The notes under the pieces: model-generated
Seen by the model: the letters and a program-made list of their open reading frames with translations, nothing else
The model's database searches: none
What the model was told of the DNA's origin: nothing
Shown: positions 1,779 to 24,529 of the stretch, piece after piece
Position numbering within the stretch: the stretch's first letter is position 1
How the letters are laid out: the number at the start of each line of letters is the position of its first letter
Source: a virus
Strand: one strand, 5' to 3'
Virus record (IMG/VR): IMGVR_UViG_3300021963_000499
Coordinates: 1 to 29,141 of that record
DNA length: 29,141 nucleotides
Translations under genes and position numbers: made by a program

Positions 1779-2029
1779 AAACGCGAGCTGAGATCGTCAC
1801 GGGACTGCTCGAGCGCGGGGCGAAGAGAGACGCCGCCAACCAGTACGCCGATGCCTATCTGGAATACCACCAAGCAGCCGACCGTGTCGCCGCGGCCGGG
1901 CTCGTTGTCGCGCACCCTGTACATGGTGGCCCGATCGAGAACCCGTACTTAGCCATTCGCGACAAGGCGCTCGCGCGGCTGCAGGCCATGCGCAAGGCGG
2001 CGTTCATCGACGTGGACTGGCTCTGGTGA
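1775..2029 (+). CDS. Second P27-like small terminase protein
   Basis: About 84 residues from GTG 1775, which overlaps the methyltransferase stop by GTGA. An in-frame upstream start at 1721 would run deep into the methyltransferase gene and is less likely. The sequence has the middle of the P27/Terminase_4 pattern: a helix with YADAYLEYHQAADRV, then AAGLVV, a short Gly-containing linker, then NPYLAIRDKALARLQAM. It stops before the LGLTP-type end that the protein at 73 does have. The stop overlaps the large terminase start by GTGA (2026-2029), placing it directly before the motor gene as for a normal small subunit. It may be the true small subunit, or one half of a split pair with the gene at 73. 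Assignment is from pattern only. Confidence 0.65.
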   Translation: MKTRAEIVTGLLERGAKRDAANQYADAYLEYHQAADRVAAAGLVVAHPVHGGPIENPYLAIRDKALARLQAMRKAAFIDVDWLW

Positions 2030-3651
2030 TACTGACCGTCCCAAACGACGATGAATTATTCCCGACGCTCGGGAATGGCGTGTGCGATTGGATTGAGGCG
2101 AACCTCTGCTTTGGCCCTGGCGACTTGCGCGGTCAGCCAGCGGTGATCGACGATGAGAAGCGTGCGCTGATCTGGCGCATGTATGAAATCTTCCCCAAGG
2201 GACACCCGCAAGAGGGGCGTCGGCGGTTTCGTCGCGTGGGGATCTCGCTTCCGAAGGGCACCGCGAAGACGGAGCTCTCGGCGTGGTTGGCCGCGGCTGA
2301 ACTGTCGGACGACGCGCCGGTTCGGTTCGATGGATGGGTGAAGAAGCGCGGCAAGTATGAGCCGATCGGCGCGCCGGTCACTGACCCCTTCGTTGTGCTC
2401 GTCGCCTACACGGAAGAGCAGAGCGATGAGCTGGCGTACGCCGCGTTGCGGGTCATGCTCGAACTGAGCGAGATCGGGAATAAGTTCGACATCGGGCTTG
2501 AGCGCATCCTGCGGAAGAGTGGCGGCGGCAAGGCGGTCTCGGTGGCCGGTAGTCCCGACGCGCGAGACGGTGCGCGTACCACGTTTCAGGTGTTCGACGA
2601 GACGCATCGATTCACGTTGCCGCGGTTGAAGCAGGCGCATCAGACGATGATGGCGAACCTGCCGAAACGGAAAGCCGCGGACCCGTGGGCGCTCGAAATC
2701 ACAACGGCGCCGGAACCGGGCGCCGGGTCGATCGCGGAAGCCACGATGGAGTACGCGCAGCAGGTACACGAGGGGCGGCTCGCCGATGCGTCGCTGTTCT
2801 ACTTCCACCGGCAAGCCTCCGACGACCATGATCTGGCCACCGAAGAGGGCGCGCGGGCGGCGGTGATCGAAGCCTCGGGACCGTCGGCCGCGTGGCGTGA
2901 CATTGACGGCATCGTGCAGCTCTGGCGCGACCCCACGACCGACCGCGCGTACTTCGAGCGGGTGTACTGCAATCGGCTCGTGAAGGGCTCGTCGCAAGCG
3001 TTCGACGTGGACAAGTGGCGGTCACTCGCGAAACCTGAGAACCCGGCGAAGTTCGGCGACCTCATCACGATCGGCTTCGACGGTTCGCAGTTCCACGACT
3101 CCACCGGCATCATCTGCACGCACGTCGAGACCGGATATCAGTGGTCTGCCGGCTTGTGGGAGTGCCCGCCGGGGATGGGAACGCCTGAGCGGCCGTGGAA
3201 GGTGCCGGCGTCCGACGTCGATCGCGTGATGCGCGAGCTCTTTGTGCAGTTCACCGTATGGCGACTCTACGCGGACCCGCCGTACTGGCAGGAGTGGATC
3301 GCGGCCTGGCGCGGCGAGTTCGGCGAAGAGCGCGTCATTGACTGGTGGACGAACCGCCGGCGGCAGATGGCGACGGCCCTCGAGGGATTTGTCACATCGA
3401 TCACGGCCGGCACGCAGTCGCACGATGGTTCTCAGGACTTGGCGCGGCACCTCGGCAACTCTCGCCGCGAGGATCTGTCTCAGCGTGACGAACAGGGCAA
3501 GGCCATTTGGTTGATCCGCAAAGAGCGGCCCGGCTCGCCGCTCAAGATCGACCTGGGGATGGCCGCCGTACTGAGTTGGGAAGCGCGCACCGATGCGATC
3601 GCCTCGGGCGTCTCGCACAATACACAGGGAGTGCACGTATGGGCGATTTAG
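2026..3651 (+). CDS. Phage terminase large subunit (packaging ATPase-nuclease)
   Basis: 541 residues from GTG 2026, coupled to the preceding gene by GTGA. The N-terminal ATPase has a Walker A-like loop LPKGTAKTE (75-83) after RRVGIS, and a Walker B strand FQVFDETHRF (187-196) with the acidic pair DE. The C-terminal RNase H-like nuclease starts at LITIGFDGSQFHDS (346-359), where Asp351 is the likely first metal ligand, and continues through RLYADPPYWQEWI (413-425). Length and domain order fit HK97-type large terminases, which drive DNA into the prohead and cut the concatemer. The 3' end overlaps the small HTH gene at 3639 by 13 bp. Confidence 0.93.
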   Translation: MILTVPNDDELFPTLGNGVCDWIEANLCFGPGDLRGQPAVIDDEKRALIWRMYEIFPKGHPQEGRRRFRRVGISLPKGTAKTELSAWLAAAELSDDAPVRFDGWVKKRGKYEPIGAPVTDPFVVLVAYTEEQSDELAYAALRVMLELSEIGNKFDIGLERILRKSGGGKAVSVAGSPDARDGARTTFQVFDETHRFTLPRLKQAHQTMMANLPKRKAADPWALEITTAPEPGAGSIAEATMEYAQQVHEGRLADASLFYFHRQASDDHDLATEEGARAAVIEASGPSAAWRDIDGIVQLWRDPTTDRAYFERVYCNRLVKGSSQAFDVDKWRSLAKPENPAKFGDLITIGFDGSQFHDSTGIICTHVETGYQWSAGLWECPPGMGTPERPWKVPASDVDRVMRELFVQFTVWRLYADPPYWQEWIAAWRGEFGEERVIDWWTNRRRQMATALEGFVTSITAGTQSHDGSQDLARHLGNSRREDLSQRDEQGKAIWLIRKERPGSPLKIDLGMAAVLSWEARTDAIASGVSHNTQGVHVWAI

Positions 3652-3836
3652 ACAAACTGCTGACGTTCGCCAAGGTGGCCCTTTTCTACGACGTGTCGCC
3701 GCGGACGGTGCGGCATTGGGTCGCGAAGGGCGCGATTGATGTCGTACGGACGCCCGGCGGCGAGCCGCGCATCCGCGCCTCGTCGTGCATCGCGACTGAA
3801 AAAAAGATGGCAATACGCGGCAACCGCGCCGAGTAG
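3639..3836 (+). CDS. Small MerR/excisionase-like HTH protein
   Basis: 65 residues from ATG 3639. An upstream in-frame start at 3507 lies inside the terminase gene and is less likely; ATG 3639 has GGGAG about 7 bases ahead. The sequence reads KVALFYDVSPRTVRHWVAKG followed by RTPGGEPRI, the classic winged-helix layout of excisionase/MerR-type DNA-binding domains: helix-turn-helix, then a basic wing that ends in a GG/R hairpin. A short basic tail (KKMAIRGNR) follows. It could be a regulator, an excisionase-like accessory factor or a packaging-site binding protein. The position between terminase and portal does not decide. Confidence 0.7.
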   Translation: MGDLDKLLTFAKVALFYDVSPRTVRHWVAKGAIDVVRTPGGEPRIRASSCIATEKKMAIRGNRAE

Positions 3837-3870: not shown

Positions 3871-5184
3871 TTGTGCAGCTTGGATCATTTCTATCAAGAT
3901 ATTCCCGGCTGGTGTGACTTCGCGGATCTCTACGCGGACGTCGTAGCGTCGTTGCCCGACGGCGCGCACATCGTCGAAGTCGGCGTCTGGCAGGGCCAGT
4001 CCACTGCGGCCCTCGGCGTCGAAATCCTCAACAGCGGCAAGGTTATTCGCCTCGACGTGGTCGACCATTTCAAGGGCTCGTCGGAATGCGTCACGCTCGT
4101 CGACCAGCGGTCGATCTTCGAGGCCAACGTCGCCCCGATTCGCCACGCGGTACGCGACATTCACGAAGAGAAGTCATGGGACGCCGCCCGACGGTACGCC
4201 GACGGCTCGCTCGATTTCGTGTTCCTTGATGCGGCCCATGACACCGCCTCAGTTCTGAAAGACCTCGCGGCCTGGTGGCCCAAGATCAAGCCAGGCGGCA
4301 GCATCGCCGGCCACGACGCCGACTGGCCGAGTGTGACTGCCGCGCTCAAGCCGTGGTCGGAGCTCTCCGGCGTGCGCGTGGATCAAGTGTCTCGCCGCAG
4401 TTGGCGCGTAAAGAAGGCTGCGCAGTTGCCGGCCTCAACGTGGACCGTTCCGCCGGCGCAGCGAAAGTGTCTAGTGGCCGTGTGCTCCAACGAGCGCAGC
4501 GTGTACCGGCAGACTGCTCAAAGCTTGCTCACTCTTGGCTGGGGTCAGCGCGTCCTTGACGCCATCCGAAGCCACGGCTTCACAGACGTCCAAGTCACCT
4601 GGGTGAGCAAGTTTGTTCTCGTGTCGGACCTGCGCAATGAAGCCGCGCGTCTCGCCATCGCGATGGAGTGCTCGCACGTTCTCTTCCTAGACGCCGACAT
4701 GGTCTGGCCGTCCGATGTGCTGTCGCGGATGCTGGCGCATCACGACAAGGGCATCGTGTCGGGCTTGTATTTTCTGAAGTCGTGGCCGCACTACCCTGTC
4801 GCGCTCACGCGCGCGCGTGTGAATGCTGAGACGCTGCAAGTCGACTACGACTACGACAAGTCGTGTCACCTTGCCGAAGGGGTGCGACCCGTTGACCTCG
4901 TCGGCATGGGCTGCACGATGGTCCCGGTCGCGCTATTTCACTCGATGGCGCAGCCGTGGTTTGAGTACCAGCAGGACGGCTCGGGCAACTGGAGCGTGAC
5001 GGAGGACGTCGCGTTCTGTCAGAAAGCGAAAGCCCTCGGCTGCCCGATCTTGCTCGACCCTGATGTGAAATGCGGACACGTCGCGCAACACGCGATCGCT
5101 GAGCCGTGGTACGAGCGGTCGCTGTCTGAGATCGCGATGCTCGATCGGATGGCGCGTACCGAGCCCGAAGGGGTTGCGGTATGA
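3871..5184 (+). CDS. Fused SAM methyltransferase-glycosyltransferase
   Basis: 437 residues. Residues 1-185 form a class I SAM methyltransferase of the Methyltransf_24/macrocin-O-methyltransferase type: IVEVGVWQGQSTAAL (34-48, SAM loop), LDVVDHF (61-67), LDFVFLDAAHD (114-124) and GGSIAGHDA (142-150). Residues 199-410 form a GT-A glycosyltransferase-like domain with LFLDADMVWP (271-280), where DAD is the likely metal-binding DxD, and TEDVAF (377-382) as a probable catalytic acid. The likely start is TTG 3871 or TTG 3880; neither has a strong ribosome site. The 3' end overlaps the portal start by ATGA. It probably modifies a sugar on a virion or host surface glycan by transfer and O-methylation. 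Acceptor and sugar donor are unknown, and a metabolic gene in the packaging-head operon is unusual. Confidence 0.82.
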   Translation: MCSLDHFYQDIPGWCDFADLYADVVASLPDGAHIVEVGVWQGQSTAALGVEILNSGKVIRLDVVDHFKGSSECVTLVDQRSIFEANVAPIRHAVRDIHEEKSWDAARRYADGSLDFVFLDAAHDTASVLKDLAAWWPKIKPGGSIAGHDADWPSVTAALKPWSELSGVRVDQVSRRSWRVKKAAQLPASTWTVPPAQRKCLVAVCSNERSVYRQTAQSLLTLGWGQRVLDAIRSHGFTDVQVTWVSKFVLVSDLRNEAARLAIAMECSHVLFLDADMVWPSDVLSRMLAHHDKGIVSGLYFLKSWPHYPVALTRARVNAETLQVDYDYDKSCHLAEGVRPVDLVGMGCTMVPVALFHSMAQPWFEYQQDGSGNWSVTEDVAFCQKAKALGCPILLDPDVKCGHVAQHAIAEPWYERSLSEIAMLDRMARTEPEGVAV

Positions 5185-6452
5185 GCTTGTGGACGCGCAT
5201 CTTCGGCGGCGACGAGAAGCCAGAGGCCCGCGGCACGCTGGCCGAGATTGACTTCTGGCGCAAAGACGGTTGGTTGCAGAGCACCGCGTCCGGCATGACT
5301 GTGACGCCATCGACGGCGATGTCCGTGCCTGACGTGTACGCCTGCGCGATGGTATTGGCGCAGGACGTGGCGCGCTGCCCGCTGAAGCTCCGCGTCCGTC
5401 AGGCCGATGGCGAATGGGCCGACGCTGACCAGCATCCACTGTGGGAAATCCTGCACGATCTGCCGAATCCTGAGATGACGGCCGGCGAGTTCCGCGAGCA
5501 GATGCAGTACTCGCTCGTGGGGCACGAAGTCGCGTACGCCGAGATCGTGCGCCGTCCGAATGGTCAAGTGAAGGCGCTCTGGCCGCTCGATTCAGAGCGC
5601 ATGACCGTGACGCGCGACGCGCTCAACGTGAAGCGGTACTCGTATCGGATGAACGACCGGACGCTGGACTGGACGTTTGACCCTGACCGCCCGCCGCTGC
5701 TCGAATTGCGCCGGCAGTCACCGATTCACCAGTGCCGTGACCTGATCGGATTGGCGATGGCGCTCGACGTCTACGCGGCGAAGTTCTTTGCCAACGGTGC
5801 GCGGCTGAGTGGTCTCCTGACGGTCGACGGCAGCTTGAAGCCAGACCAGCGTCAGGCGATTCGCGAGTCGTTCGAGGGGATGCACCGCGGCGCCGACAAG
5901 GCGCACAAGATCGGCGTGATGGAAGGCGGCGCGAAGTTTCAGCCTCTCACCGTGCCGAACAACGAGGCGCAGTTCACTGAAACGCGCAAGCACATCCGCA
6001 CGATGATTGCCGGCGCGTTCCGTGTGCCGCCGCACAAGATCGGCGACCTCGATCGCGCGACGTTCTCGAATATCGAAGCGCAGGATCGCGACTACGTCAA
6101 TTCGTCGCTGAATCCGTACCTGGTGCTCTGGGAACAGGCTGTTCGCCGTGACCTCTTGACCACGCGGCAGTATCCGAACTATGTCGCGATCTTCGACCGC
6201 GAAGCCCTGATCGAAGCGGACTCGCAGAGCCGCGCGAACGCGCTGGCGGTCGGCCGCCAGAATGGCTGGTGGTCAGTGAACGACGTCCGCCGAAAGCTCA
6301 ATGAGAACCCCGTCCCGGCGTCTGAGGGCGGCAATACGTACCACATGAACGGCAACATGATTCCGCTGACGGGTGCGCCTGAGACGGCCAGCACGACGGA
6401 CATCGTGGCGCCGGTCGAGCCGGCGGATGCCGGAATGGGACAGGTGATGTGA
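5181..6452 (+). CDS. Portal protein, HK97 family
   Basis: 423 residues from ATG 5181 with an ATGA overlap upstream. It shows the HK97-type portal signature: N-terminal segment with VPDVYACAMVLAQDVARCPL (49-68), a DLIGLAMALDVY helix (187-198) followed by FFANGARLSGLL, and AFRVPPHKIGDLDRATFSN (279-297), a hallmark of the family. Twelve copies form the ring at the capsid vertex through which DNA enters and to which the tail attaches. Length is normal for the family. It is followed immediately by the prohead protease, the usual order portal-protease-capsid. Confidence 0.95.
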   Translation: MSLWTRIFGGDEKPEARGTLAEIDFWRKDGWLQSTASGMTVTPSTAMSVPDVYACAMVLAQDVARCPLKLRVRQADGEWADADQHPLWEILHDLPNPEMTAGEFREQMQYSLVGHEVAYAEIVRRPNGQVKALWPLDSERMTVTRDALNVKRYSYRMNDRTLDWTFDPDRPPLLELRRQSPIHQCRDLIGLAMALDVYAAKFFANGARLSGLLTVDGSLKPDQRQAIRESFEGMHRGADKAHKIGVMEGGAKFQPLTVPNNEAQFTETRKHIRTMIAGAFRVPPHKIGDLDRATFSNIEAQDRDYVNSSLNPYLVLWEQAVRRDLLTTRQYPNYVAIFDREALIEADSQSRANALAVGRQNGWWSVNDVRRKLNENPVPASEGGNTYHMNGNMIPLTGAPETASTTDIVAPVEPADAGMGQVM

Positions 6453-10826: not shown

Positions 10827-10983
10827 GGAGTTCGTGGCGCTGACGCGCCTCAGCACGAAGGACGACGAGACGCTGGCGCTCGCGGGCGAGACGTGTGAGC
10901 GCGTGCCGGCGGCCAGCCTGGCGCTCTTGGCGCATACCGGGAAGATCGCGCCGGCGGCGGCGAAGAAAGCGAAGGCGAAATAA
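10807..10983 (+). CDS. Small protein before the major tail gene
   Basis: 58 residues from GTG 10807, chosen because GGAGAGG lies 6 bases upstream. The sequence GKEFVALTRLSTKDDETLAL, then GETCERVPAASLALLAHTGKI and a basic Ala/Lys tail (AAAKKAKAK), resembles the small connector-region protein at 8919: a hairpin with a Gly-Glu turn, then a helix ending in L-A-x-G. It may be a paralogue or a similar mini-fold. It overlaps the major tail gene by one base. Function unknown. Confidence 0.55.
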   Translation: MATLSGKEFVALTRLSTKDDETLALAGETCERVPAASLALLAHTGKIAPAAAKKAKAK

Positions 10984-11969
10984 TGGCCGGGAAAATCAGT
11001 AGTTCCTCGTTCGGCGTCTTGCTCGTGGGCGGCTATGACTTCCTCGCCGCCAAGGTCAAGGCGTTCACGTACAAGCTCACAGCCCTCACCGAGAAGTCGG
11101 ACGGGCTGGGCGACACCTTTGACGCCGTGACGCCGACCGGACTCGGGAAGCTCGACATCACACAGGGCGGCGCGTTCTTTGACGACGCCACGAACGGGGC
11201 GCACGCGCTCTTGTCGCCAGCGTCAGCCACGCAGACGAGTCGGCTACTTGTGGCCGCGTTCGCGGGCAACGCCATTGGTAAGCCGTACATTTGCGGCTCG
11301 GGCACCTACGCGATGGCGTACGACGCCGCGCCGTCTGTCGGCGGCCTGACAAAGGCGAACGTCACGTACTCCGTGACTGGCACCATTGACCGGGGCACGA
11401 TCCTTAATCAGCTCGTCGCCAAGACCGTGGACTGGAACACCAAGACCGACGGCTCGCCGGTGGACTACACCACGGACTCGTCACAGGTGGCCGTCGTGAT
11501 CTCCACGGCCACCAAGGCCTCACCGTGCGTCGTGACCACGGCCACGCCGCACGGTCTCACCACGGGCCAGTTGATCCTGACGAGCAACAACACGCTCGCA
11601 GGGCCGAGCATCAATTCCGAGCAGGCGGTGACCGTGACCAGCACGACGACCTTCACGGTCGCCGTGAACACGTCGGCCAGCACGGGCGCCGGGACGGGCG
11701 GCACGTTTGTGCGCGCGAACACGGTCAGCGGTGTCGCTGCGGTACAGGCGGTCAGCGCCTTCTCTGGCTTCACCGGCTTCATCGGCAAGGTGCGCGACTC
11801 GGCGGACGATTCTACCTATGCCGACCTCGTGACGTTCACGGACGTGACATCAGGACCGATTGACGAGCGGAAGACGACCTCTTCAACAGTGAATCGGTAC
11901 CTGAGCTTCAACGGCGACGTGACGGGCTCGGGCAGCATCAGCGTGTTTGTTGGCGCGGCGCGCCTGTGA
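10983..11969 (+). CDS. Major tail tube protein with inserted FCCH-like cassette
   Basis: 328 residues from ATG 10983. The N-terminal half (1-165) has the tail-tube beta-sandwich feel, with TPTGLGKLDITQGGAFFDDA (50-69) as the key segment that recurs in the gene at 12269. Residues 170-244 form a separate cassette, VVTTATPHGLTTGQLILTSN followed by SEQAVTVTSTTTFTV and a GTGG turn; it matches the 'HGL-TGD...TFTV' modules annotated in phages as ubiquitin-activating E1 FCCH-like. The tube fold appears to resume after it (255-328). The cassette probably decorates the tail surface. Stop overlaps the next gene by GTGA (11966-11969). Confidence 0.75.
   Translation: MAGKISSSSFGVLLVGGYDFLAAKVKAFTYKLTALTEKSDGLGDTFDAVTPTGLGKLDITQGGAFFDDATNGAHALLSPASATQTSRLLVAAFAGNAIGKPYICGSGTYAMAYDAAPSVGGLTKANVTYSVTGTIDRGTILNQLVAKTVDWNTKTDGSPVDYTTDSSQVAVVISTATKASPCVVTTATPHGLTTGQLILTSNNTLAGPSINSEQAVTVTSTTTFTVAVNTSASTGAGTGGTFVRANTVSGVAAVQAVSAFSGFTGFIGKVRDSADDSTYADLVTFTDVTSGPIDERKTTSSTVNRYLSFNGDVTGSGSISVFVGAARL
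11490..11714 (+). other. FCCH-like 'HGL-TGD' domain cassette in major tail protein
   Basis: Domain-level feature: residues 170-244 of the protein encoded at 10983-11969. The hallmark is a strand, then PHGLTTGQ, a loop with an N-x-E turn, TFTV and a Gly-Thr-Gly-Gly end. The same cassette type is present in the 980-residue tail protein (17948-18163). Confidence 0.6.
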
Positions 11970-12268: not shown

Positions 12269-12697
12269 ATGGCTGCAGGCAAACACTCAAGTTCTGAAGT
12301 CACCATTTCATACGACGACTCGCAGGGTGGCACCCCGCGCACGATCACCTCATCGGTGATGACGCTCGGCGCGCTGAAGCTCACCGCGGGCATGCAGGCG
12401 TCGACGGCCTTCGGCGACACGATCGAGAAGCAACTACCGACGGGACTGACCAAGGTCGAGAAGGTCACGTTTCACGGCTTCTTCGATGACACGGCAACCA
12501 CCGGCCCGCACGTCGTCTTCGGCTCAGGCCCGGATACCAGCGTACAGGGCGGCACGCGCACGCTGTCGGTCGTCATCGGCAACTCGAAGACGTGGACCTC
12601 GGAAGGCTACGTCGAGAGCTACAGCGTGATCGGCAAGGCCGGGAACCTCACGGAATACGAAGCGGTCTGCGTGCAGAACACCGGCGCCTGGTCGTAA
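12269..12697 (+). CDS. Second tail-tube-like protein (paralogue of the major tail protein)
   Basis: 142 residues from ATG 12269 with GGAGAAG about 8 bases ahead. The segment FGDTIEKQLPTGLTKVEKVT followed by HGFFDDTATTGPH matches LGDTFDAVTPTGLGKLDI and GGAFFDDATNGAH of the tail protein at 10983, so the two genes are homologous in their core. It lacks the FCCH-like cassette and is about half the length. The rest is beta-rich (TRTLSVVIGNSKTWTSEGYV). It could be a minor tube subunit, a tube adaptor at one end or the main tube with the longer gene as decorated minor form. It stands apart with gaps and a hairpin on both sides, unlike its neighbours. Confidence 0.65.
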   Translation: MAAGKHSSSEVTISYDDSQGGTPRTITSSVMTLGALKLTAGMQASTAFGDTIEKQLPTGLTKVEKVTFHGFFDDTATTGPHVVFGSGPDTSVQGGTRTLSVVIGNSKTWTSEGYVESYSVIGKAGNLTEYEAVCVQNTGAWS

Positions 12698-13520: not shown

Positions 13521-13896
13521 CACCGCTGGCGTGTTCGCCCTCTTTGACCGGATGGCTGAGTCGGCGGAGTTCGTGTGCAGGGAAGTGGCGCGCGACACGG
13601 CCAAGCGGATCGTCGCGGAAGCGCAGGCGCGTGAGCGTCGCGCGGTGAGCGGGACCGCGACGGGTGTCACCGAGTCGGGCATCCATTGGGAACTGACGCG
13701 AGACGGCAAGGGCTACATCGTGTTGGGGTACGAGGCCGGGCTGCAAGACGCGCCGGTGGACAAGTACCTCGAATACGGCACGATGTTTATGCGCGCGAAG
13801 CCCTTCTTTTTCCAAAGCGCCATGCTCGAAGAAACGCCGCACCGTGAGCGGCTGGTTGAACGGCTGACCGACTGGCTCGAAGAGGTGGGACGATGA
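13492..13896 (+). CDS. HK97-gp10-like neck/tail protein
   Basis: 134 residues from GTG 13492 with an AGGAGG 8 bases ahead; it overlaps the frameshift product by 29 bp. The pattern is that of HK97 gp10/minor tail proteins: an N-terminal helix with REVARDTAKRIVAEAQARER, a beta strand HWELTRDGKGYIVLGY, then YLEYGTMFMRAKPFFFQSA, where the E-x-G-T...A-(R/K)-PF motif is diagnostic. In most siphophages this gene lies between connector and tail completion genes; here it comes after the chaperone. ATGA overlap with the HNH gene follows. Confidence 0.8.
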   Translation: MSQMFTATIDTAGVFALFDRMAESAEFVCREVARDTAKRIVAEAQARERRAVSGTATGVTESGIHWELTRDGKGYIVLGYEAGLQDAPVDKYLEYGTMFMRAKPFFFQSAMLEETPHRERLVERLTDWLEEVGR

Positions 13897-14609
13897 GCAG
13901 GCATTGCGCCTGGTGCTCTTGCCTATTGCCAGATCGTCGCCCCGGTCAAGCGGGAGCGCTTCACGCCAGTTGCTCTGAGCGCTGCCGAGAAATGGTTGCA
14001 ACCGAGCATAAGCGCTCTTATCACGTCGCCAACGCAGACAGGGATAATGATCGCTCTAGACGGGCCCGCGCTGACAACCGGGAGGCAAGGTCTCAGCGCG
14101 ACAGCGCCTACTATCAATCCAACCGATCTGTTATTCGAGAGAAGCAGAGAATTTGGCGGCTTAGCCGTAGCCCCCAGCAAGTTGAAGCCGAAAGGCTCGC
14201 CAAGAAGATCAAGTATGCCTTAACGGTAGATCGGGCGAAGGAAGCCGCATACCGCGCAGCGAACAGGAAGACGCTCCAAGAGCGCCAGCGACTAAGCAGG
14301 CTGCGAAATCCGACGCCATTTAGGCATCGCGAGCGCGCCAAAGGCATGATCCGCAGGGCCATCAAGCGCGGAGTCTTTGCTGAGGCCGTTAGCCCTGCGA
14401 CGGTCTTCGAGTTAGCCGGTGGCATCTGTGGTATTTGCGGCAGCGCCATTGATCCATCAGAAAAATGGCACGTCGATCACATCGAACCCTTATCCAAAGG
14501 CGGTGCCCACACATACGACAACGTGCAGCCGTCGCACGCTCAGTGCAACTTGGCTAAAGGGTCGAAGGTTCCATCCGGCCAGGGCCAATTATTCAGGAGA
14601 GCAGGATAA
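13893..14609 (+). CDS. HNH endonuclease with N-terminal zinc finger
   Basis: 238 residues from ATG 13893. A C-terminal HNH domain is clear: GICGICGSAI (177-186), KWHVDHIEPLSKGG (191-204, with the catalytic His-x-Asp-His) and NVQPSHAQCNLAKGSK (210-225). A short N-terminal Cys cluster (CAWCSCLL and CSERCREM) may bind zinc or DNA, and the middle is very basic and helical. Such free-standing HNH genes in tail operons are typically mobile homing-type endonucleases. The base composition looks somewhat less GC-rich than its neighbours, and it separates two genes that belong together. It could also take part in packaging, but packaging HNH genes usually lie next to terminase. Confidence 0.85.
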   Translation: MSRHCAWCSCLLPDRRPGQAGALHASCSERCREMVATEHKRSYHVANADRDNDRSRRARADNREARSQRDSAYYQSNRSVIREKQRIWRLSRSPQQVEAERLAKKIKYALTVDRAKEAAYRAANRKTLQERQRLSRLRNPTPFRHRERAKGMIRRAIKRGVFAEAVSPATVFELAGGICGICGSAIDPSEKWHVDHIEPLSKGGAHTYDNVQPSHAQCNLAKGSKVPSGQGQLFRRAG

Positions 14610-17008: not shown

Positions 17009-19951
17009 ATGCCGTCCCTCTCTGGTTCGACGGTCGCCCCGCTGTACTCGCTGCTGAATGTGGCGCGGCTCGGCGCGGCCCGGCTCGGCTACACGTCGCC
17101 CAAAGTGTTTGTCAGCGTGGACAGCGTCGAACGGGCGTGGGGCCGGGCGGGCACCGCGACGATGGTGCGCGACCTCACCATCACCGACATTCTGAACGAC
17201 ACGCCCAACACGGCGAGCTTTACCGCCGAAGGCTGGACGCCGACGGTCGGCATGGTGGTCCTGATCCGTCTCGGCTCGAGTAACAACCTGCGGCGGCTCT
17301 TCGCGGGGACGATCCTGAACGTCTCGCAGACCTACATCGGCTCACCCGCGCGGCCGGCGTTCCAGGTCAACTGCATCGACTACACCTGGGGACTGAATAA
17401 GCGCAAGGTGTTCGGACACTACACCGGCACCGCGTCGGCCGTGGTGGCGGCGATTATCAGCGGCTACACGATCGGGTACACGACGGCCAACGTGGTCTCA
17501 AGTCTCGCCACGCTCGACGGTGGGATCACGTTCAACGGCGACGACGTGACGACCGCCTTGACGAAGATCAAGGACCGGGCACCGGCCGCGACGCCGTGGT
17601 ACTGGTACTGCGACGACAACAAAGACATTCATTTTTTCGCCACCGATCCCGACGTGACGCGGGCCAATCCGGCCGAGCTCAACACATCGAACTCGCAATT
17701 GCTGAGTTTCACGTACAAGCGGGATCTGAGCCAGTGGATCACGCGCGCGATTATCGTGGGCGCGGGCAGTCAGACCAACGTGGAGGCGGCGGTGGGCAGC
17801 ACGACGCTCTCGCTCGCGGATACGTCGGTGTTTGATCCAGCGGGCGGCACGATCACGACGCCCGACGCGCAGATCATCACCTACACAGCGACGGCCGCAC
17901 TGGCGGCACCAAGCACACCGGCGGGGGCGGTTCGGACGGGCGGGCTGCGCACGATCACGATCACGCGGGTCGGGGCGCTCGCGACCGCGACCAGCTCGAC
18001 CGATCACGGCTACAGCACCGGGGACATTGCGGCCCACGCGGGCTCGGAGCAAACCGAGTACAACGGCAACTTCACGATCACGGTGACGGGCGTCACCACG
18101 TACACCTTCGCGGTGACGGGTACGCCGACAACCCCGGCCACCGGCACGATCTCGGCGTACGTGGAAATCGGCGGCGCGGTCGATGTCGGCGATCACTTCT
18201 ATAAATCGACGTTTGTCAGCGCTGGCGGCGAGACGGTCGGCTCGGTGGGGACGACGGCGGTCAGCGTGGCGGCGGTGACCGTACCGGGCGCGCCCACGGC
18301 GGCGGTCACGAGTGGCGCCACGGGCAACCTCACGGTCGGCACGTACGCCTACAAGGTCGCGTACCAGACGCGCAAGGGCGAAACGCTCGTCGGTTCCGCC
18401 GGCTCGGCGTCGGTCGCCGCGGTAACGACGCCCAGTGGGGGCTCGGCAGCCGAGAAGAGCCCGAAGGTGACGGGTAATCTCTCCGTCGGCGCGTTTAATT
18501 ACAAAGTCGCGTACGTGACAGCGGCGGGAGAAACGCTCGCCGGTTCCAGCTTCGGCGTGTCGACGACGGCTGTGAGTGCACCTGGAGGCTGCTCGACGGC
18601 CGCGACGACGGGCGGGTCCATGACCAGCAACACGCCGTATGCCTACGTCATCTCGTTCGTGACCGGGAGCGGCGAAGTGCCGAGCGGCGGCTATACCGTT
18701 GTGGTGATGGGCGCGAGCGACACCAAGGTGAATCTCAGTAGTATCCCGACGTCGGCAGACGTGCGCGTCACGGCGCGCAAGGTGTACCGGACGGGTGCCG
18801 CCTACCAGGGCCCGTATCGTTTGGTGGCGACGATTAGCGACAACACGACCACCACGTACGCCGATACCACGGCCGACGCGAGCCTCGGTGCCGCGCTGCC
18901 GACGACGGACACAGGCAGCACTAGCCAGATCAGCCTGACGAGCATCCCGACATCGGGGGATGCGCGCGTGACGCGCCGCAAAATCTATCGCACGGCCGTC
19001 GGCAGCAGCGTCTACCAACTCCTGACGACGATCAGCAACAACACGGCGACCACCTACAGCGACAACACGCCCGACAGCAGTCTGGGCGAGACGGAGCCGT
19101 TAGCGGATACGGCCAGCACCGGCACGATGACGGTCTCGTCGATTCCCACGTCAAGCGACAAGCGGGTCGTCGGGCGCGTGTTGTATCGCACCGTGGTCGG
19201 CGGGTCTGTCTATAAGCAACTCGGCACGATCAGCGACAACACGACGACCTCCTATGTCGACAACGTCGCTGATGCGAGCCTCGGCATCGATGCGCCGACG
19301 CTCTCGACGGCCGGCGGCGCGATCATGCGCGTCACCAGTGTGGCGACGTCCGCTGATCCGCGCGTCGTCGCTCGGAAGGTCTACCGCTCACCGAACGGCG
19401 CGATCTACCGCCTCGTGGGGACGATTGCCGACAACACGACGACGTACCTGCTCGACAACACCTCGAACGAAGACCTTCTGGTAGCCGAGCCCGCCCCGAC
19501 CACCAACAGCATCGTCGGTCTGACAGGCATCCCCGCGTCCGGCACAGGGGCGATTGTCACGACGATCCCGGACGGCACGACGGTCAATCTGCGCGTGGTC
19601 CGCAATGACACTGCCGGGCAGACCGCCCTCGCGCTCGTCATCGGCGGGGATGGGATTCAAGAGACGTACCTCACCGACGGCGCACTGGAATACGCCGAGG
19701 CGGCGGCGAAGGGTGACGGCCTCTTCACGGCCCGCGATGGCGTGGACACCGCCGTGCAGTACCGCACGTACGACGTGCGCCACGAATCGGGTTTGAATAT
19801 CGTGGTCAATCTGGCGGCGCCGACCAGCGTGACCGGCACCTTCAAGATTCAGCGCGTCACCACTTCCAACTTTTTTCCGTCGCTCTTCCCTGAGCGCACG
19901 GTCGATGCCTCGGTGGCGCATGTCACTCTGGCGCAAGTACTCGGGCGGTAA
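17009..19951 (+). CDS. Large tail-tip protein with repeat domains
   Basis: 980 residues from ATG 17009. Residues 30-250 resemble a baseplate hub or distal tail protein (RDLTITDILNDTPNTASF, RRLFAGTILNVSQTYIG, then WYWYCDDNKDIHFF). Residues 314-385 are an FCCH-like cassette with DHGYSTGDIAAHAG and TTYTFAV. Residues 385-565 hold four short repeats of a Y-K-V-A-Y...G-E-T-L-x-G-S type. Residues 576-830 hold four copies of a ~66-residue repeat with IPTS-D-RV...RK-YRT and TISDNTTT-Y-D...SLG. The end (840-980) returns to a beta-rich fold with TFKIQRV and FPSLFPERTVDAS. The repeats likely extend from the tail as an adsorption or accessory arm. Hub function is inferred from order. Confidence 0.75.
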   Translation: MPSLSGSTVAPLYSLLNVARLGAARLGYTSPKVFVSVDSVERAWGRAGTATMVRDLTITDILNDTPNTASFTAEGWTPTVGMVVLIRLGSSNNLRRLFAGTILNVSQTYIGSPARPAFQVNCIDYTWGLNKRKVFGHYTGTASAVVAAIISGYTIGYTTANVVSSLATLDGGITFNGDDVTTALTKIKDRAPAATPWYWYCDDNKDIHFFATDPDVTRANPAELNTSNSQLLSFTYKRDLSQWITRAIIVGAGSQTNVEAAVGSTTLSLADTSVFDPAGGTITTPDAQIITYTATAALAAPSTPAGAVRTGGLRTITITRVGALATATSSTDHGYSTGDIAAHAGSEQTEYNGNFTITVTGVTTYTFAVTGTPTTPATGTISAYVEIGGAVDVGDHFYKSTFVSAGGETVGSVGTTAVSVAAVTVPGAPTAAVTSGATGNLTVGTYAYKVAYQTRKGETLVGSAGSASVAAVTTPSGGSAAEKSPKVTGNLSVGAFNYKVAYVTAAGETLAGSSFGVSTTAVSAPGGCSTAATTGGSMTSNTPYAYVISFVTGSGEVPSGGYTVVVMGASDTKVNLSSIPTSADVRVTARKVYRTGAAYQGPYRLVATISDNTTTTYADTTADASLGAALPTTDTGSTSQISLTSIPTSGDARVTRRKIYRTAVGSSVYQLLTTISNNTATTYSDNTPDSSLGETEPLADTASTGTMTVSSIPTSSDKRVVGRVLYRTVVGGSVYKQLGTISDNTTTSYVDNVADASLGIDAPTLSTAGGAIMRVTSVATSADPRVVARKVYRSPNGAIYRLVGTIADNTTTYLLDNTSNEDLLVAEPAPTTNSIVGLTGIPASGTGAIVTTIPDGTTVNLRVVRNDTAGQTALALVIGGDGIQETYLTDGALEYAEAAAKGDGLFTARDGVDTAVQYRTYDVRHESGLNIVVNLAAPTSVTGTFKIQRVTTSNFFPSLFPERTVDASVAHVTLAQVLGR
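18161..18703 (+). repeat. Tandem type-A repeats (4 units) in tail protein
   Basis: Four divergent units at residues ~394, ~443, ~493 and ~540 of the protein at 17009, each with a hydrophobic strand, then a G-E turn (YKSTFVSAGGETVGS, YKVAYQTRKGETLVGS, YKVAYVTAAGETLAGS, YVISFVTGSGEVPSGG). They look like fibronectin-type or Ig-like beta hairpins. Confidence 0.7.
18734..19498 (+). repeat. Tandem type-B repeats (4 units, ~66 residues each)
   Basis: Four units at residues ~579, ~646, ~712 and ~778, seen as IPTSADVRVTARKVYRT, IPTSGDARVTRRKIYRT, IPTSSDKRVVGRVLYRT and VATSADPRVVARKVYRS, each followed about 30 residues later by TISDNTTTTYADTTADASLG or a variant. The underlying DNA also repeats imperfectly (ACAACACGAC-containing blocks), so recombination could vary the copy number. 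Confidence 0.75.
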
Positions 19952-22902: not shown

Positions 22903-23105
22903 TGCCTGACAACGGCAAACTCCGCGCAGGGGAACACTTGGCCGACTGGCAGAACAAGCCCGGCGAGATCACGGTCGTCGTCTCGGTCGTCTCAGGCAAG
23001 TTACACACGCCGATTGATCTGCGCGCGCCACGGACGGGATCGATGGCTGAGCGGTGTGCGATGTACGGCGGCCCGACGCAGTGGGCGCGGAAGGACACGA
23101 AATGA
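22902..23105 (+). CDS. Small protein of unknown function
   Basis: 67 residues from ATG 22902, overlapping the previous TAA by one base. The sequence has a beta-rich middle (EITVVVSVVSGKLHTPIDLR) and no motif that I recognise. It is coupled to the next gene by ATGA (23102-23105), so it probably belongs to the same unit. Confidence 0.5.
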   Translation: MPDNGKLRAGEHLADWQNKPGEITVVVSVVSGKLHTPIDLRAPRTGSMAERCAMYGGPTQWARKDTK

Positions 23106-24529
23106 AACACATCATGAAACGCATCATTGTCTGGTCGGTCCTCGTCTCGGGCGCTTGCGTGACGCGCGAGAAGCCCGACGTGAATACGGCGCCGCCGGTG
23201 GTCGTGCCGCCTGTCGTTGTGGACGATCCGACCTTCCCGCAGCAGTGCGCGGATATCTGGCAGCAGGAACTTGGCCGCGCGATAGACAGTGCGGGACTCG
23301 CGGGCTGTCTCGATCAGTTCCGGCGCGGGGATTCAGGTGAAACGATTCGCGCCGGCGTGCGGTTGAGCGCGGAGTACCGCCAACGCCAGTCAGACATCGC
23401 CAACGCGATCGAGAACGCGAAACGATTCAGGCCGTTCACGCTGGATGGCCGAACATGGCAGCGGGACGGGCGCGAGCAGTACCCACTGCTGGCGTCTGAC
23501 TTGTCGCCGTTGGTGCTGTCGGCGGCTGAGCGCGGCGCCGTTCTTGATGAGATCAAGGCGCACGGCTATGACAGCGTGCGCGTGTTCGCGGGGCATCTGA
23601 CGTGGACGACGCCGGTGCAGACGGTCGAGATCGCTCGGGCGGTCCTGCCGGTATTCATGGACGAAGCGGCGCAGCGCGGTTTGAGCGTGCTGGTGGTCGC
23701 GGTGACGGACTCGCGCGCCGGTGGCTACGATGTGACCGGGCACTTGCAGGCCATCGCGGAGATCGTGCGCGGCCGGTCCAATCTGCTCGGCGTGACCTGT
23801 GCAAATGAACTCTGGCACCCGAGCCAGTCTGATCTCGTGAATGACGCCGCCGCGCTCGACGCCGTCTGCCGGCCGATCATGGAACGCGCCGGGATTCGAT
23901 GGGATCTCGGGGCGCCCGAATATGACGAACCGCAGGGCGATGTCTGGCCGATTCCCTCGGGCTCGTTTATCACGCTGCACCTTGATCGCGGCCGGGACAA
24001 GTGGAACCAGATACGCCGGGTCCGCGAACTGTTCGAGGTGATGAACATCACGCGCAAGTCGGTTATCAACGCCGAAATGCTCGGCGCCGACGAGGTCGAC
24101 GGGCCGGTGAGCGGTAAGCAGCGATCGAACGACCCCAGCCTCTTTTTTGCGGCAGGCGTTCTCGGTGCTGGTTTCAAAATCCCCAGCCTGTTTCATTCTG
24201 AATCCGGTCGATGGTCGCGCACATTTGGGCCAGTGCAGGCGGAGTGCTCGCGGGCGTTTGTCGCTGGCTTCCACGCGATCCCGCACGACTTTCAGGGCCG
24301 CTATGTGAACACCGGGCAAGTCGGCTCGCCGGTGCGTGGGGCCCATTTCACCGACGTCGGCGGGCCGGTGGTACGGGCCTATTCCTTCGTCTCGGGCGAT
24401 CAGGCGTACACGGTCGTGCTGCACACGAGCGAGACGCTACCGGCCGATGCGGTCACCTGGGCCGATGGCTGGCACGCTGAGGCGCGGCCCGGCCGTCCGC
24501 ATGTCTCGATCTTTTGGAGTCACCGATGA
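23102..24529 (+). CDS. Lipoprotein with glycoside-hydrolase-like TIM barrel
   Basis: 475 residues from ATG 23102 (ATGA overlap). The N-terminus MKHIMKRIIVWSVLVSGAC is a short lipoprotein-type signal with a candidate acylated Cys19, followed by a Pro/Val linker. Residues ~50-100 may be a small helical domain. Residues 110-460 look like a clan GH-A glycosidase: SVRVFAGHLTW (158-168), SVLVVAVTDSRAGG (195-208), VTCANELWHP (231-240) with Glu236 as candidate acid/base after Asn, and VINAEMLGADEVDG (321-334) with Glu325 as candidate nucleophile. A Trp-containing SLFHSESGRWSR (362-373) may line the substrate groove. It could degrade host wall or capsular glycans, or be a surface lipoprotein of the lysogen. 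The catalytic call is inferred from motif spacing. Confidence 0.65.
   Translation: MKHIMKRIIVWSVLVSGACVTREKPDVNTAPPVVVPPVVVDDPTFPQQCADIWQQELGRAIDSAGLAGCLDQFRRGDSGETIRAGVRLSAEYRQRQSDIANAIENAKRFRPFTLDGRTWQRDGREQYPLLASDLSPLVLSAAERGAVLDEIKAHGYDSVRVFAGHLTWTTPVQTVEIARAVLPVFMDEAAQRGLSVLVVAVTDSRAGGYDVTGHLQAIAEIVRGRSNLLGVTCANELWHPSQSDLVNDAAALDAVCRPIMERAGIRWDLGAPEYDEPQGDVWPIPSGSFITLHLDRGRDKWNQIRRVRELFEVMNITRKSVINAEMLGADEVDGPVSGKQRSNDPSLFFAAGVLGAGFKIPSLFHSESGRWSRTFGPVQAECSRAFVAGFHAIPHDFQGRYVNTGQVGSPVRGAHFTDVGGPVVRAYSFVSGDQAYTVVLHTSETLPADAVTWADGWHAEARPGRPHVSIFWSHR

Follow-up and report, generated by a model that had tools for sequence, protein, structure and literature searches.

A methyltransferase-glycosyltransferase fusion encoded beside the portal gene of a tailed phage and its likely role in virion glycan modification

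The stretch of DNA analyzed here (the window; 29,141 nucleotides, IMG/VR virus record IMGVR_UViG_3300021963_000499) encodes, between its terminase and portal genes, a single protein that joins an N-terminal methyltransferase (MT) to a C-terminal glycosyltransferase (GT). The protein is specified by a single open reading frame, it has two predicted folds with conserved active sites, both halves are under purifying selection, and the linkage to head genes recurs in other phages. The likeliest role, which we consider reasonably probable, would be the glycosylation of a virion protein, presumably one of the head, followed by O-methylation of the attached sugar.

The reading frame is uninterrupted on the plus strand from 3871 to 5184 and encodes 437 amino acids as mechanically called from TTG 3871, which is the numbering used below. 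Homologues begin with MDHFY, MKHFY or MQHFF and align with a second in-frame TTG at 3880. This codon is therefore the likelier start, so that the gene best supported by its homologues spans 3880..5184 (+) and the protein probably has 434 amino acids. The stop codon overlaps the start of the portal gene in an ATGA (5181..5184, +), preceded by a Shine-Dalgarno-like GAAGGGG upstream of the portal start. The coupling of both genes had been proposed in an earlier note made from the sequence alone, and the same junction was found in 9 of 14 fusion genes. The portal gene itself (5181..6452, +; Pfam Phage_portal, E 9e-89) is HK97-type, as are the protease and the capsid of the window by Pfam. Upstream of the fusion gene lie the gene of the terminase large subunit (TerL; 2026..3651, +; phrog_9, E 4e-63) and a small HTH/excisionase-like gene (3639..3836, +; weak matches to phrog_57 and phrog_66), homologues of which also sit upstream of the fusion in loci L003 and L005.

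Several other genes of the window were recorded in passing. A fusion of a ParB-like domain with an N6/N4 DNA methylase (528-1778; phrog_498) lies upstream of TerL, and a relative of it occupies the same position in several T7-like phages that carry GT and MT, e.g., L029 and L037. Two neighboring tail genes (10983-11969 and 12269-12697) both match L003 12779-13315 and look like tandem paralogues, perhaps of the tail-tube type; the first exceeds the second in length, perhaps through an inserted domain. An HNH/endonuclease VII-like gene (13893-14609) is situated among the tail genes just 5' of the tape measure gene, and a 980-amino-acid protein of the tail region (17009-19951) has, by eye, several internal repeats (KVYRT...ATISDNTTTTYADTTADASLG). 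The 491-amino-acid protein encoded at 23054-24526 gave no sequence match in Pfam, PHROG or the PDB, and by eye resembles a TIM-barrel glycoside hydrolase.

The MT domain comprises residues ~4-187 (3880..4431, +). Residues 35-149 matched Pfam PF13578 (Methyltransf_24) with 62.6 bits against a curated cut-off of 26.3 (E 7e-17), as the earlier note had expected. In 22 MT relatives, V35, G38, G42 and S44 of SAM motif I (VEVGVWQGQS; 3973..4002, +) are invariant and E36 is nearly so. The stretch from D120 (FLDAAHD) to H148-D149 (GHD; 4228..4317, +) contains candidate metal or active-site residues, as indicated by conservation in the same relatives, among which D120 and D149 are invariant and H123 is nearly invariant. 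Both aspartates align with an aspartate in MeT1, and by analogy with the related sugar O-methyltransferases the D120/H123/D149 region may have a role in metal binding. Structural comparison of the modeled residues 1-185 (VIA-align) yielded the sugar O-methyltransferases MeT1 (Z 19.6), MycF (19.1), SpnH (18.5) and NovP (18.1), with matches spanning 171-185 residues, and a profile search of this half independently picked MeT1 (E 8.5e-12). Generic O-methyltransferases scored close to these enzymes in the same comparison (Z 16-19, one at 19.5), and the fold therefore does not prove the exact substrate class of the MT.

The GT-A domain comprises residues ~198-412 (4462..5106, +). By sequence, this half matches phrog_1574 (E 1.4e-18), which has no assigned function in PHROG, as well as the glycosyltransferase families phrog_34859 and phrog_12406 of the same collection. 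No Pfam GT family reached its curated cut-off on the C-terminal half (Anp1, 16.3 bits vs. 28.8; Glyco_trans_2_3, 16.4 vs. 27), and the membership in GT2 (PF00535, PF13632) that the earlier note had considered was not supported at these cut-offs. The predicted structure has the GT-A fold that had been proposed. The closest match of residues 198-417 (VIA-align) was A197 of STIV (2c0n; Z 18.4, 172 of 191 residues, 22% identity), and the GT domain of the collagen-glycosylating LH3 matched with Z 16.9. Foldseek agreed on the structural relatives of both halves and added COLGALT1, which is also collagen-glycosylating, for the GT half; a profile search of this half identified Mnn9, A197 and COLGALT1 (E 2e-6 to 1e-3). 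Conservation was determined in a diverse set of 17 GT relatives, some fused and others stand-alone, which share 25-71% identity with the window. Four sequence motifs are invariant in this set: both aspartates of the DxD motif D274-A275-D276 (4690..4698, +), G345 and G347 of the G-loop VGMGC (residues 344-348; 4900..4914, +; 151 and 153 in the numbering of the aligned piece), the glutamate and aspartate of the xED motif T377-E378-D379 (4999..5007, +), and the C-terminal H403 (5077..5079, +). Thus, the Pfam match in the N-terminal half and the predicted fold in the C-terminal half bear out the two-domain reading of the earlier note, and the motifs quoted for it (VEVGVWQGQS, VFLDAAHD, LDADM) are present and conserved.

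The two-domain AlphaFold model, which was built from 14 natural fusion proteins, is confident, with a mean pLDDT of 88.7 and a pTM of 0.83; NCBIfam holds no model for the protein. Where not saturated, pairwise dN/dS values range from 0.08 to 0.29 for the GT half and from 0.18 to 0.23 for the MT half. Active-site conservation together with low dN/dS indicates that both halves are kept as working domains and, presumably, as catalysts. The fusion protein lacks a long hydrophobic stretch and is therefore probably cytoplasmic.

The fusion is carried by 19 IMG/VR contigs besides the window, a count that includes L100, L101, L108, L110 and the near-identical fragment L002; in the named-phage collection no full-length fusion was found. 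Full-length fusions elsewhere in IMG/VR share 39-64% identity (aligned set). The earlier note had allowed for a frameshift error joining two normally separate genes; as the same fusion occurs in all these contigs, such an artefact is excluded. In 19 of the 19 other contigs the next recognized head gene after the fusion is an HK97-type portal gene, and all six close relatives found by portal (62-71% identity, and the near-identical L002) carry the fusion. The contigs were not dereplicated, so locus counts here and below overstate independence and show consistency rather than separate events.

The same families are also arranged differently elsewhere. GT and MT are encoded by separate neighboring genes between TerL and portal in a T7-like podovirus group. 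The order GT-MT-portal was found in 28 loci, some of them cut by contig ends, with head genes comprising the long podovirus-type portal phrog_1216, a scaffold and the capsid phrog_1328; that both domains are adjacent yet separate in this group provides Rosetta-stone evidence for joint action. A lambda-like group has portal phrog_21, a ClpP-like protease and a major head protein. Here the MT lies C-terminal to two other GT domains in a GT-GT-MT protein, which is encoded directly 3' of the major capsid gene (L024); such relatives include L024-L028 and L046. L039 and L041 have the MT joined to a GT of a further family, phrog_13126. In L106 (1-2164) the GT occurs alone in an ATGA overlap with the portal gene, and an MT gene of a different class is located upstream (Methyltransf_11, 23.0 bits vs. 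a cut-off of 21.2), which suggests that one methyltransferase partner has been swapped for another. In the MT tree, fused and split MTs occupy different parts while the deep branches are unresolved, so that the pairing may have arisen once or several times. The region from TerL to portal in L023 (793-5989) was noted as a larger glyco-island with two phrog_1962-type glycosyltransferases, an MT of the same family as that of the window, a second candidate MT and a GT2.

The recurrence of this MT subfamily together with several GT families argues for methylation of a sugar. It likewise speaks against a reading in which each half has its own substrate, or both work one after the other on a nucleotide-sugar, so that the MT would modify a protein side chain or the donor sugar while the GT works separately. 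Fused enzymes need not share one substrate, and the generic O-methyltransferase folds score close to the sugar-specific ones; on the other side, the partners of the MT are GTs whether fused or adjacent, and its best fold and profile matches are sugar O-methyltransferases. We consider separate substrates distinctly unlikely.

The earlier note had regarded both the domain pair and its location as unusual. Neither holds: the pair is found repeatedly, in fused, split and trimodular form, and a position by head genes is the rule in the sampled loci. In a GT-anchored survey that was blind to the MT, a recognized head gene was present within 4 kb flanks in 66 of 78 loci; GT-only relatives also adjoin capsid genes, and the linkage recurs beside portal or capsid in three or more head types that are unrelated to each other. 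The location near the portal is hence a recurrent pattern and not an oddity. The note had further proposed expression late in infection and a virion protein or a host glycan as target. Late expression and a virion target receive indirect support from the finding that, in unrelated phages, both families are linked to head genes time and again; such linkage is no proof of a head protein as substrate.

Phage glycosyltransferases often act on host glycans, as in the gtr seroconversion cassettes. By the same token, the fusion protein could modify a surface glycan of the host (LPS, capsule, teichoic acid or an S-layer precursor), e.g., to block superinfection or rebinding of the progeny to debris. 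Both folds are generic for sugars, and the PHROG category of related GTs is 'moron, auxiliary metabolic gene and host takeover'. However, the protein, unlike the membrane-bound seroconversion GTs, is devoid of a long hydrophobic stretch, and its gene resides inside the head cluster with the recurrent neighborhood described above, whereas conversion cassettes usually lie elsewhere. A host glycan is thus less favored than a virion target and appears unlikely.

A third possible substrate is phage DNA. The GT would then glycosylate a modified base and the MT would methylate the base or the sugar as a protection against restriction. T-even phages are the classical example of DNA glycosylation, the MT family bears the name 'DNA methyltransferase' in PHROG, and a GT of the split group weakly matches the T4-like HMC glucosyltransferase family phrog_842 (E 8e-4). 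In contrast, the best fold matches of the MT are sugar O-methyltransferases that act on small molecules, and no thymidylate-synthase-like base hydroxymethylase (PF00303) was found in 16 records, i.e., the window and 15 relatives, which may be fragments; positive controls worked. DNA hypermodification is accordingly disfavored, and we regard it as highly improbable. The PHROG label of the MT family may mislead annotation pipelines.

A virion acceptor is favored because of the linkage to head genes, the absence of a long hydrophobic stretch and the precedents discussed below. The fusion protein would be a bifunctional soluble enzyme that is made together with the head proteins and co-translated with the portal. 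Its GT-A half would transfer a sugar from a host nucleotide-sugar, with the metal held by the DxD motif, to a virion protein of the phage, most likely a head protein. The MT half may then use SAM to O-methylate a hydroxyl group of the attached sugar, giving a virion protein with a short, perhaps single-residue, O-methylated glycan. Possible benefits to the phage are masking of the particle, adhesion or stability.

To our knowledge, there are only a few tailed-phage isolates with demonstrated virion glycosylation. Phages with sugar-decorated, methylated particles can be predicted from the linkage, which spans HK97-like, T7-like and lambda-like head clusters, and the mass to look for would be, e.g., +176.07 Da, which by arithmetic corresponds to an O-methyl-hexose. 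With this prediction, phrog_1574 gains a testable function. More broadly, one GT-A family and a sugar O-methyltransferase may form a portable capsid-decoration module, fused, split or trimodular, in the head clusters of several unrelated tailed-phage lineages, and O-methylated virion glycans may be common, if unrecorded, in environmental phages; we give this wider view an even chance.

The fusion family is a variant of known virus-encoded glycan-building and glycan-methylating enzymes. Among tailed phages, the capsid and the tail tube of cluster O mycobacteriophages such as Corndog are reportedly modified by an O-methyltransferase and GTs (PMC11600133), and virion glycosylation genes of mycobacteriophages include Che8 gp108-110 (PMC11600133, PMC12363180), of which gp110 is an essential capsid GT (PMC12363180). 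These tailed phages likewise possess GTs and, in cluster O, an adjacent O-methyltransferase; however, the genes are separate rather than fused, and in Che8 they lie far from the head genes. By hhalign, the GT of the window showed no relation to Che8 gp109 or gp110 (probability <1%), and homology to these proteins was rejected.

The closest solved fold to the GT half, STIV A197 (PDB 2c0n), is also viral; it is an essential GT for which the STIV capsid protein is the suggested target (PMC10551542), but it is a single-domain protein of an archaeal virus and lacks an MT. For the MT half, the closest solved folds are MeT1 of Mycobacterium hassiacum, which 1-O-methylates mannosides (PMC9883506), SpnH and MycF (Z 18-19.6), all of which carry out SAM-dependent O-methylation of sugar hydroxyls. 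These are stand-alone bacterial enzymes, whereas the MT of the window is fused and shares 14-19% identity with them; at this identity, their substrates are not transferable to it. A GT and a class I SAM methyltransferase within one viral polypeptide, as in the window protein, are found in A064R of the chlorovirus PBCV-1. This protein of 638 amino acids consists of a beta-L-rhamnose transferase, an alpha-L-rhamnose transferase and a 2-O-methyltransferase, and it adds two rhamnoses to the glycan of the major capsid protein and 2-O-methylates the last one (PMC9614988). A064R did not appear among the BFVD matches listed for the model, which is no evidence of a difference. With two GTs and a C-terminal MT its layout differs from that of the window protein, which has an N-terminal MT and one GT; the GT-GT-MT proteins of L024-L028 come closer to A064R in layout.
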